The notes below the pieces were generated by a model that saw nothing but the letters and a program-made list of their open reading frames with translations, made no database searches and was not told the DNA's origin. Below, in pieces: positions 44,131 to 47,329 of a DNA stretch of 64,000 bases. Location: contig NZ_CP045488.1 in assembly GCF_009392895.1 (NCBI RefSeq), positions 558,001 through 622,000 on the forward strand, read 5' to 3'. Both the position numbers and the translations under genes were made by a program. Every line of letters starts with the position of its first letter. Within the stretch, counting starts at the first letter, position 1. This DNA is from Natronorubrum aibiense (lineage in GTDB: Archaea; Halobacteriota; Halobacteria; Halobacteriales; Natrialbaceae).

Positions 44131-44268
44131 AACGGACGGCATTCTACGTCGTATCGATCAAGAGAGGTGGGTCTCGAATACTGCTTTCTTTGCCCTGTGT
44201 CGCCATCGTGCAACGCGATCGATTGTTCGAAGAGTAATGCACTTCAACACGCCACTACGAGTACACGT

Positions 44269-44925
44269 ATGAGCACCGCCTCGTCTGCACAGTCGCTTGC
44301 ATCTATCGTCGTCGTCGACTACGGACTGGGGAACCTTCGCAGCGTCACTCGCGGTTTAGAGCGTGCGGGTGCCGACGTCGAGATCACCGACGATCCGGAC
44401 GCGTTCGCCGCCGCCGACGGCGTCGTCCTGCCCGGCGTTGGCGCGTTCCGAGAGGGCGTCGAGAACGCCGATCCGATCCGAGAGGACCTCCTCGAGGTCG
44501 CAGCCGACGGCACGCCGCTGTTTGGCATCTGTCTCGGCATGCAGATGTTGTTGACGACGAGCGAAGAGGGAGAAACCGACGGCGACTCGGCCGTACAGGG
44601 TCTCGACCTGATTCCGGGCACCAACGTACGATTCGCCGAAGGACAGAAGGTCCCACACATGGGCTGGAACGAACTTCGCGTCGAGCGTGACCACCCGCTG
44701 GTCGAAGGAGTCGACGGAAACTACGCCTACTTCGTCCACTCTTACTACGCCGTTCCCGACGACGAGAAGGCGACCGTTGCAACGACTGACTACGAACTCG
44801 AGTTCCCATCAATCGTCGCCAACGACGACGGCACCGTCTTCGGGACGCAGTTCCACCCCGAAAAGAGTGGGGAGACGGGGCTACAGATCCTGCGGAACTT
44901 CGTCGAAATCTGTGCCGAGGAATAG
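44269..44925 (+). CDS. hisH: imidazole glycerol phosphate synthase glutaminase subunit HisH
   Basis: 218 aa from the ATG at 44269. Class I glutamine amidotransferase with catalytic C88 (GICLGMQ), H196 and E198 (QFHPEKSG). It supplies ammonia to HisF for the histidine pathway intermediate. DYGLGNLRSVTRGLERAGA at the N-terminus is typical. HisF is not adjacent. Single gene, next to the replication origin. Confidence 0.93.
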   Translation: MSTASSAQSLASIVVVDYGLGNLRSVTRGLERAGADVEITDDPDAFAAADGVVLPGVGAFREGVENADPIREDLLEVAADGTPLFGICLGMQMLLTTSEEGETDGDSAVQGLDLIPGTNVRFAEGQKVPHMGWNELRVERDHPLVEGVDGNYAYFVHSYYAVPDDEKATVATTDYELEFPSIVANDDGTVFGTQFHPEKSGETGLQILRNFVEICAEE

Positions 44926-45277
44926 GCTGGTCGAAACAGCGCAATCGAGAGCGAGCGGATTCGTCTCATCGATCGGTTGCTTTCTCACCAGCCGTTTCTC
45001 ACTGATCCCTTGTTCTACCGATTCCAGATCTAACTACGAACTCGAGGAACACATGCTCAACGAATGGAACCGCCACTCGTGGATGAGAGGACACTCGGCG
45101 GATGAAAGCGCCACCCGAGCGCAAGCGAATCTACGAGTTACGTTCTGGAGATTTCCCTGTGATCACCTCCCCTATCATCTCCTTTTCGCCTGTTCTCTTC
45201 TGTAAGGTCACCTCGGTTCAAGAGCGTCCGAGGGGGTTGTGTCTGTCCTCGGCTCGTCGGTAGCCGACCGGAGAGAC
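44926..45277. other. noncoding flank of the origin
   Basis: No ORF of haloarchaeal character was found. It leads into the first origin box. A G-rich sequence near 45216-45240 (GGTTCAAG ... GAGGGGGTTG) weakly resembles the general archaeal origin recognition box but does not match the boxes below. Confidence 0.45.
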
Positions 45278-45298
45278 ACACCCCGGAGTGCCGCTGTA
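45278..45298 (-). repeat. origin box R (inverted)
   Basis: Minus-strand TACAGCGGCA-CTCC-GGGGTGT, a perfect match, pointing opposite to all other boxes. Confidence 0.85.
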
Positions 45299-45439
45299 TA
45301 GGCTGAGGGGAAAAGCGAATTCGTGGGAAGTCCGGTGAACTATAGGTGATTACGCATCGGTGCGTATACTCCACCAGCCTAGCTGTTAAATCAAACCCAG
45401 AGGAGTTAAATATTGGATCTGTGTCAAAGTCCATTGAGT

Positions 45440-45478
45440 GTAGTGAACGCAGTTTCGTTCACTCGGTAGTGAACGCAG
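45440..45478. repeat. 13-bp direct repeat in the putative unwinding region
   Basis: GTAGTGAACGCAG occurs at 45440-45452 and 45466-45478. Its GTGAAC also pairs with GTTCAC (45457-45462) as an inverted repeat. It lies between box R and the direct boxes. Confidence 0.6.
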
Positions 45479-45733
45479 AACCAACGCTCGAGTTGATCCA
45501 GACCGTTGTCTCTACCTCGGATTACAGCGTTCCCTCTAGGAGCGATTCTTTCGAATCTGTGAGTCGTGATCGACCTGTTTTCGTCACTTCTTACTCGTCT
45601 TCGTCGTCGTTGCGGTTCGAGCGTGGTGTGTTCGATCGGCTCCGATTCTCGTTTCGCATCGCTGTATCGGTTCGTCGATCGATCCCCGTGCTCGTCCTGA
45701 CCCCCGCTTCAGGTCGACACACCGCCAAACCAA

Positions 45734-45754
45734 TACAGCGGCAACGCGGGGTGT
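45734..45754 (+). repeat. origin box F1
   Basis: TACAGCGGCA-ACGC-GGGGTGT, perfect match to the consensus. Confidence 0.85.
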
Positions 45755-45767
45755 GTGTGTGTCCATA

Positions 45768-45788
45768 TACAGCGGCACCGAGGGGTGT
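45768..45788 (+). repeat. origin box F2
   Basis: TACAGCGGCA-CCGA-GGGGTGT, perfect, 34 nt after F1. Confidence 0.85.
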
Positions 45789-45830
45789 CAAACGACCAGT
45801 TCGATCGCTATGGAAACCCTTTTGAAGCCA

Positions 45831-45850
45831 TACAGCGGAAATACGGTATC
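45831..45850 (+). repeat. origin box F3 (degenerate right half)
   Basis: TACAGCGGAA-ATAC is intact but the G-tract has decayed to GGTATC. Confidence 0.6.
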
Positions 45851-45909
45851 TGGCCGTCCTCGAGCACCATCGGGTCCGACGTTTCTTCCCGATAGCGGGG
45901 AACTCACGA

Positions 45910-45930
45910 TACAGCGGCACTCCGGGGTCA
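45910..45930 (+). repeat. origin box F4
   Basis: TACAGCGGCA-CTCC-GGGGTCA; the core is identical to box R. Confidence 0.8.
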
Positions 45931-45938
45931 CGCAGCTA

Positions 45939-45959
45939 TACAGCGGAACCACGGGGTGT
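45939..45959 (+). repeat. origin box F5
   Basis: TACAGCGGAA-CCAC-GGGGTGT, 29 nt after F4. Confidence 0.85.
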
Positions 45960-45970
45960 GGTGTCGTCTA

Positions 45971-45991
45971 TACAGCGGAAACGTGGGGTTA
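45971..45991 (+). repeat. origin box F6
   Basis: TACAGCGGAA-ACGT-GGGGTTA, 32 nt after F5. Confidence 0.8.
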
Positions 45992-46002
45992 TACCTCGAC
46001 TA

Positions 46003-46023
46003 TACAGCGGCATTGAGGGGTGT
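46003..46023 (+). repeat. origin box F7
   Basis: TACAGCGGCA-TTGA-GGGGTGT, 32 nt after F6. Confidence 0.85.
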
Positions 46024-46067
46024 CATTTCCCCTGTCTAAGGAACGCTTGTGCCAGAATCACCGATCA

Positions 46068-46088
46068 TACAGCGGCAACTAGGTTCCG
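46068..46088 (+). repeat. origin box F8 (degenerate, next to the orc1/cdc6 promoter)
   Basis: TACAGCGGCA-ACTA followed by GGTTCC. It ends 5 nt before the likely TATA element (TTTAAG, 46093-46098) of orc1/cdc6, so initiator bound here could repress its own gene. Confidence 0.6.
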
Positions 46089-46129
46089 AACTGTTTAAGA
46101 GCGCACCAACGAATGTCAACGACAACTGA

Positions 46130-47329
46130 ATGTCGGACGCCACGGACTACTTCGGGAGCGAAAACGAAATTTTCCAGAACAAAGAGCTCCTGCAGGTCTC
46201 ACACCTTCCCGACGGCGACCGGATCATCGGTCGCGAAGACGAACTCACGAACCTCGCGAACGCGATCAAGCCGGCGACTCGAGGCAACACCCCGAACAAC
46301 GTACTCGTCTACGGGAAGACGGGGACCGGTAAGTCGCTGTGTTCGAAGTTCATCACCAACCAAGCGATCGAGCGCGCGAAGAACAACGACGTCTCGATCG
46401 GCGTCGCGTACGTCGACTGCCTACAGGAGTCGACGGAAACACAGGCCGTCCAGTCGACCGGCCACCAGCTCAACGAGCAGGAGGAGACGGGAATCTCGAT
46501 CCCTCACTCGGGATTGAGCACGTCCGAATACTATCGTCGGCTGTGGCGCATCGTCGACAGCCGCTACGACGTCGCGTTAATCATCTTAGACGAGGTCGAC
46601 AAGATTGAAGACGACGACATCCTGATGCAGCTCTCGCGTGCGGTCGAATCCGGGAAACTCACCGAGAGCACGGTTGGCGTTATTGGCATCTCGAACAAGG
46701 TCCGGTACAAGGACTCGTTGGATGAGCGAATCAAATCGAGCCTCTGTGAGCGCGAGTACGTCTTCTCGCCGTACGACGCGAACCAGATCCGCGAGATCTT
46801 ACGCTCCCGGTCCGACGCGTTCCACGAAGGCGTCCTCGAGGACGGCGTCGTCCCGCGCGTGGCGGCGCTCGCAGCGCGTGAACACGGTGACGCCCGCAAA
46901 GCGATCGACATTCTTCGGTTTGCTGGCGAGATCGCCGAGGAGAACGACCTCGAGTCCGTCACAGAGGCCTGCGTCGATCAGGCCCACGAACGCGAGGAGA
47001 CTAGCCGGCTCGCCGAACTCATCTCGAAGAGTCCGAGTCACGCGAAACTCGTCCTCGAGGCGATGGCGCTGCTCACCCAGCAAAAGGAAGGCGACGACGT
47101 CCCGGTCAAAACCAACGAGGCGTACGACCTCTACAAGCGCCTCTGCGATCGCGACCAGTCGGACCACCTCAAACTGCGACGGGTGCGGGACATCCTCTCG
47201 GAACTCGAGTTCCTCTCGATCATCGAACAGGAGCGCAAGTGGGCCGGCAAGGGGAAAGGAAACTACATGGAAAACCGGCTGATCGACGATCCAGAGGTCA
47301 TCATCGCGGCCTGTAACGAGTCCGACTGA
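46130..47329 (+). CDS. Orc1/Cdc6-type replication initiator
   Basis: 399 aa AAA+ protein that binds origin boxes and loads MCM. Walker A GKTGTGKS (62-69), Walker B LIILDEVDK (D154, E155), sensor region VIGISNKVRYKDSLDERIKSSL, and a C-terminal winged helix (about residues 300-399, KLRRVRDILSELEFLSIIEQERK). Start at 46130 gives the usual N-terminus; a TTTAAG lies 32-37 nt upstream. The adjacent box array is its probable target; such haloarchaeal initiators are usually specific for their own origin. Confidence 0.95.
   Translation: MSDATDYFGSENEIFQNKELLQVSHLPDGDRIIGREDELTNLANAIKPATRGNTPNNVLVYGKTGTGKSLCSKFITNQAIERAKNNDVSIGVAYVDCLQESTETQAVQSTGHQLNEQEETGISIPHSGLSTSEYYRRLWRIVDSRYDVALIILDEVDKIEDDDILMQLSRAVESGKLTESTVGVIGISNKVRYKDSLDERIKSSLCEREYVFSPYDANQIREILRSRSDAFHEGVLEDGVVPRVAALAAREHGDARKAIDILRFAGEIAEENDLESVTEACVDQAHEREETSRLAELISKSPSHAKLVLEAMALLTQQKEGDDVPVKTNEAYDLYKRLCDRDQSDHLKLRRVRDILSELEFLSIIEQERKWAGKGKGNYMENRLIDDPEVIIAACNESD

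Follow-up and report, generated by a model that had tools for sequence, protein, structure and literature searches.

Archaeal chromosomes can have several replication origins, each read by its own initiator, and the evolution of box specificity is poorly resolved. The window analysed here is a 64-kb stretch of Natronorubrum aibiense DNA, which corresponds to 558-622 kb of a 3.35-Mb contig (C1) in a genome of 4.35 Mb. In this window, a series of sequence boxes lies upstream of an orc1/cdc6 gene, and a first-pass annotation proposed that boxes and gene form an origin-initiator pair with its own specificity. The question is whether this region is a chromosomal replication origin, and whether its boxes belong to the neighbouring protein.

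Organization of the box array

The region between hisH (44167-44925, plus strand) and orc1/cdc6 (46130-47329) contains nine TACAGCGG boxes. All nine boxes of the first-pass annotation could be located, in the orientations it had given: eight are on the plus strand, toward orc1/cdc6, and one is on the minus strand (45278-45298). When at most three mismatches were allowed, the 64-kb window gave eight matches, and shuffled sequences 0.12 ± 0.33; the ninth box (46068) escaped this search solely for want of a G-tract in its right half. Exact matches to TACAGCGGMANNNNGGGG number nine in the whole genome, and seven of them are inside one 0.75-kb stretch at orc1/cdc6. Tandem repeats and RNA families were sought at the array, and none were found.

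The reversed box carries a long G-string extension (45270-45299, ATACAGCGGCACTCCGGGGTGTGTCTCTCC) and forms the left arm of an inverted pair. The right arm is box A (45734-45765), which has the extended G-string GGGGTGTGTGTGTGTCC and is also the first member of a distal triad. Box B (45768-45788) follows 34 bp past A (32 bp in most relatives), and box C (45831-45851) 63 bp past B. Two boxes of a variable middle group (45910-45930 and 45939-45959) come next. The proximal triad consists of boxes at 45971-45991, at 46003-46023 (32 bp further) and at 46068-46081 (65 bp further), the last of which abuts the orc promoter; all these boxes are on the plus strand. The proposed box pattern with a G-tract thus holds for seven boxes, but those at 45831 and 46068 have the left half and lack GGGG. 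The forward spacings are, in order, 34, 63, 79, 29, 32, 32, and 65 bp.

Single boxes also occur elsewhere on the chromosome. An isolated exact box at C1:397691 was rejected as a functional site and taken as chance, since it is inside a reading frame that, as read from the ORF, resembles threonyl-tRNA synthetase. A lone full box, TACAGCGGAATCGCGGGGTGT, is intergenic at C1:768729-768749, directly downstream of a gene resembling TATA-binding protein; it could serve for titration or regulation, or be due to chance.

The core between the inverted boxes

The inverted pair encloses a core (45300-45733), the probable unwinding region. The core was described as AT-richer, and this is true to a moderate degree: its AT content is 48%, against about 36% in the surroundings, and reaches 63% in the best 60 nt. 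These 60 nt overlap a conserved element, TTAAATA...TGTGTCAAAGTCCATTGAGT, which is followed by the inverted repeat GTTCACT...AGTGAAC (45406-45476). The element was recognized in an alignment of eight Natrialbaceae cores and in the AT-richest windows of 30 loci, and is common to most relatives. Both arms of the pair, the reversed box and box A, have an extended G-string of the GGGGTGTGTGTCTCC type, which is not conserved in the other boxes. Among the reversed boxes of the Natrialbaceae, the extension GGGGTGTGTCTC is nearly invariant.

The initiator gene and its promoter

The orc1/cdc6 gene (46130-47329, plus strand) is complete and encodes 399 amino acids. The product has a Walker A motif (GKTGTGKS), a Walker B motif (LIILDEVD), and a winged helix at residues 296-392; it matches TIGR02928 with 420 bits, and profile matches cover the Cdc6 lid and the winged helix. 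The nearest solved structures are those of Orc1 from Aeropyrum and Sulfolobus (2v1u and 2qby), which are DNA-bound forms.

The last box is fused to a BRE/TATA-like orc promoter, GGTTCCGAACTGTTTAAG (46082-46099, plus strand), that is kept in most of the 30 Natrialbaceae loci. The box continues into GGTTCCGAACG-TTTAAG, read as the BRE and TATA box of orc. Outside the Natrialbaceae, a TATA-like stretch is also found just past the last box in most of 20 clade loci. As the last box runs into these promoter elements, we infer that TFB and the initiator compete for the promoter of orc. One protein would then fire the origin and also restrain its own gene.

Conservation in the Natrialbaceae

A protein search gave 30 Natrialbaceae loci with an initiator identity of 78-99%; in most Natrialbaceae that carry the protein, the identity is 93-99%. 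Boxes are present upstream of the orthologous gene in all 30 loci, with 5-20 in forward orientation and one reversed in 29 of them (three are reversed in L057). The spacing of the outer groups is strict. Every locus has the distal pair, with a spacing of 32-34 bp; its third box, 62-64 bp further, is present at 20 loci, and the proximal triad (32, then 63-65 bp) at 29. The third box of each triad usually has no G-tract. The distance between the distal and proximal groups varies by hundreds of base pairs, and the middle stretch is variable. A periodicity of 10.5 bp was sought in the set of distinct spacings and not found, so that helical phasing of the array in general was dropped; spacings of 32 and 63-64 bp do fit three and six turns, and the claim is limited to the triads. 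A further block, CTATGGAAACCCTTTTGAA (45808-45826, plus strand), is AT-rich or promoter-like. This block, with the sequence CTATAGAAACTCTTTT, is kept between boxes B and C and is absent from Natronococcus-type loci; it may act as a promoter or as another unwinding element. In the literature searched, we found no earlier description of the triads, the promoter-fused box, the core element, or the extended inverted pair across the Natrialbaceae.

In 23 of the 30 loci the next gene upstream is hisH, which means that the locus has been inherited as part of the chromosome; in a few relatives it resides on plasmids. The pair is present in 62 of 125 Natrialbaceae genomes (initiator E value below 1e-150), a count that includes a few genomes with more distant paralogues. 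The close pair is absent from the other 63, which makes it an accessory to oriC1 rather than an origin that is generally essential.

In Natrarchaeobius chitinivorans (L053, 870 bp upstream of orc), the array has grown to 20 forward boxes, many of them about 34 bp apart. In Natronoglomus mannanivorans, one locus (L102, G007:C42:224000-229500, on the same contig as L063) has intact boxes and a split initiator gene with about 65 middle residues missing. Judging from these features, we regard it as a recently broken origin.

Pairing of box and initiator in haloarchaea

An exact box match was found in 87 of 391 haloarchaeal genomes, and the reversed control pattern in very few. Contrary to what had been supposed, the box is therefore not unusual, but represents a haloarchaea-wide class tied to one initiator clade. 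With clade membership defined by an E value below 1e-153, 70 of the 391 genomes have the initiator. The box is present in 68 of these 70 and in 19 of the 321 others (Fisher p ~1e-55). The two protein-positive genomes lacking the exact box carry variant boxes of the TTTGCAGCGG and TTTCCAGCGG types, which read TTTGCAGCGGCAA...GGGGTGTG and TTTCCAGCGGCAACGAGGGGTGT. Among the 19 box-positive genomes with no full-length protein, G190 (Haloarcula hispanica) and G007 (N. mannanivorans) have broken initiators.

In a tree of 51 initiators, the proteins with TACAGCGG boxes, including a nested pair with TACATCGG boxes, form one clade (100/100), and the initiator of the window falls inside this TACAGCGG-box/Cdc6H clade. 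The sister clade (99/99) has TTTCACCGG or TTTCACTGG boxes. It should be mentioned that 20 loci from outside the Natrialbaceae were fetched for having the box, which makes the tree alone circular; the association rests on the independent protein-first search. In these other families, the boxes mostly form inverted pairs with a separation of about 290 bp, and the adjoining initiator is 58-68% identical, as in Haloarcula, Halorubrum, Halobellus, Haladaptatus, and others.

The other initiators of the same genome adjoin other boxes: TACATCGG (31 kb), AACGTCGG, CACTCTTGA, TACACTCGA, AACAGCGGAA, AACAGCGGACA, TTTCACCGG, and the oriC1 type (1.256 Mb). The recognition helix and the wing of the winged helix differ by box class, with SELEFLS and a GKGKG wing here versus KEHAFLD and GGSAEG in the sister clade. 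The proposal of a pair with its own specificity is thus well supported by sequence comparison: box and one Orc1/Cdc6 clade occur together, and the paralogous initiators appear to use other boxes. The left half of the box was also said to differ from the general archaeal box. It does so by a few bases, but intermediates such as TTTCCAGCGGCAACGAGGGGTGT bridge to the classic ORB, TTCCAGTGGAAAC-GAA-GGGG. The box of oriC1 in the same genome is TCTCCAGTTGAAACGAAGGGGTG.

Several related arrangements were observed. The chromosome has a paralogous origin-initiator pair at C1:30862-32550, some 570 kb from the present one, with a protein of 65% identity and TACATCGGCACTCCGGGGTG boxes, one base off the box of the window; a Natrinema plasmid (L162) carries such a pair as well. 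At two loci (L086 in G402 and L103 in G395), inverted TACAGCGG clusters lack an adjoining initiator of the clade and lie beside a distant Cdc6 of about 27% identity, and this Cdc6/Cdc18-type gene also adjoins an intact pair in Halorubrum ezzemoulense (L158). At a Haloarcula locus (L097), a further box cluster is downstream of the initiator gene, which recalls the titrating oriC2D of H. hispanica.

Comparison with known origins

Each haloarchaeal Orc/Cdc6 family was shown in 2012 to have its own ORB (PMC3528665), and in 2013 the ARS activity of each H. hispanica origin was found to depend on the adjacent cdc6 (PMC3936714). In that species, oriC5-cdc6H is inactive, which was attributed to the initiator having lost its winged helix (PMC4441112). 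The H. hispanica Cdc6 of the present clade is split, with 123 kb between an N-terminal part at 108.5-109.4 kb and a C-terminal part at 232.6-232.9 kb. These halves fit the published Cdc6H and Cdc6H_C (PMC4441112), so that oriC5-cdc6H is a member of the clade. It shares with the window the box class (TACAGCGGCAACGAGGGGTG, inverted) and the initiator clade, and differs in its minichromosome/plasmid context, its core of about 290 bp, its few boxes, and an initiator lacking the winged helix. The window initiator is about 64-68% identical to the Haloarcula members, below the 80% or more that Wu et al. 2012 used for one origin family, and 78-99% identical among the Natrialbaceae; by that rule the latter form a separate family. 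An experiment on an intact clade member was sought in the literature and not found, and oriC5-cdc6H is the only tested member identified. A literature search with the exact box sequence gave unrelated matches only.

Another close counterpart is the chromosomal origin of the orthologue in Haloterrigena turkmenica (G028), whose initiator is 93% identical and whose boxes include one reversed. It differs in the number and spacing of the middle boxes and in nothing of principle. Wu et al. 2012 (PMC3528665) predicted origins on that chromosome, and this one is probably included. The locus is not oriC1, as oriC1-orc1, the universal haloarchaeal origin, sits elsewhere in this genome, near C1:1,256.2-1,258.6 kb. 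Both have inverted G-string boxes around an AT-rich core upstream of orc, but oriC1 has the box TCTCCAGTTGAAACGAAGGGGTGGGG, only two main boxes, and a G-rich inverted repeat inside, and its initiator shares only 42% identity within the aligned region. Origin II of Hlac_3512 and HQ2959A (ORB TAACAGCGGAAACAGTGGGGTGGGGGGGT; PMC3528665) shares the CAGCGG core and the G-string and differs in G-string spacing; the AACAGCGGAA...AGTGGGG box of the present genome goes with other initiator clades (L011 and L013). Natrinema J7 oriC4/pFJ2, with eight boxes and no transformants (PMC5350488), was considered as a tested orthologue and rejected, because its primer site is at 1,885 kb and the initiator at 1,266 kb (G061). 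The pFJ3 primer was sought in the genus Natrinema and not found.

Function of the locus

Sequence features of a haloarchaeal origin are present in the window. An intergenic region adjoins an intact orc1/cdc6 gene, whose product exceeds 300 residues and has both an AAA+ and a winged-helix domain; the region holds two or more ORB-like repeats that are inverted and carry a G-string, and between them, to a moderate extent only, an AT-rich part with the TTAAATA element. Very probably, the stretch is a haloarchaeal-type replication origin of the chromosome, linked to orc1/cdc6 and served by a cognate initiator of its own. As far as sequence can tell, the pair is a well-conserved new instance of an already known origin type.

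The anatomy, conservation, box-clade co-segregation, and promoter overlap observed here can be set into a model in which binding, the unwinding site, MCM loading, firing, titration, and autorepression are taken from established archaeal origins. The Orc1/Cdc6 from 46130-47329 would bind the nine boxes, with its winged helix on the ATACAGCGG half and its AAA+ domain toward the G-tract. The core, where the DNA might open and MCM might be loaded, would be flanked by the reversed box and box A, whose extended G-strings point outward. The seven further forward boxes, which extend up to the orc promoter, may serve as an array for loading or titration. At the last box, where the G-tract is replaced by the BRE, the initiator would repress its own gene. 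We tentatively propose, as a possibility short of even chances, that this graded array couples firing to initiator supply: the extended high-affinity boxes would fire the core, the 32/64-bp triads would act as counters of bound initiator, and the gene would be shut off through the G-less box at BRE/TATA, to which it is fused.

It is rather unlikely, but deserves attention, that the locus is a dormant or reserve origin, that is, an intact pair outcompeted by oriC1 in normal growth and kept for replication without the main origin. There is a precedent in oriC4 of Haloferax mediterranei (PMC4595724), full-length orc genes number at least 13 in the present genome, including nine on the chromosome of the window, and the pair is missing from half of the Natrialbaceae. 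In addition, GC and purine skew, sampled along the chromosome in 50 stretches of 20 kb, did not turn clearly at 604 kb. The high protein identity, the hisH context, and the strict box spacing, however, suggest steady use.

A mainly regulatory role, in which the boxes titrate the initiator and autorepress its gene, like H. hispanica oriC2D, with little origin activity, seems quite improbable. The boxes are strongly biased to the gene side and one is fused to the orc promoter, and an ORB-rich region has been reported to lower origin activity (PMC3936714); yet the extended inverted pair and the conserved core belong to the usual make-up of an origin and have been retained along with the array, and oriC2D sits downstream of its gene, apart from the origin. 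Chance or unrelated repeats, such as a relic of a mobile element, can practically be dismissed: the boxes are enriched over shuffles and tied to one protein clade, and their conservation in 30 loci refutes this explanation.

For an origin with its own initiator, the clade offers a graded series of boxes, TTTCCAGCGG, TTTGCAGCGG, TACAGCGG, and TACATCGG, with TTTCACCGG in the sister clade, and matching changes in the winged helix. Given these, specificity is testable by simple swaps. Two members of the clade in one chromosome (TACAGCGG at 604 kb and TACATCGG at C1:30.9-32.6 kb) are a natural pair for mapping a change of initiator specificity. The fixed triads and the promoter-fused box make self-regulation of an archaeal initiator directly testable.
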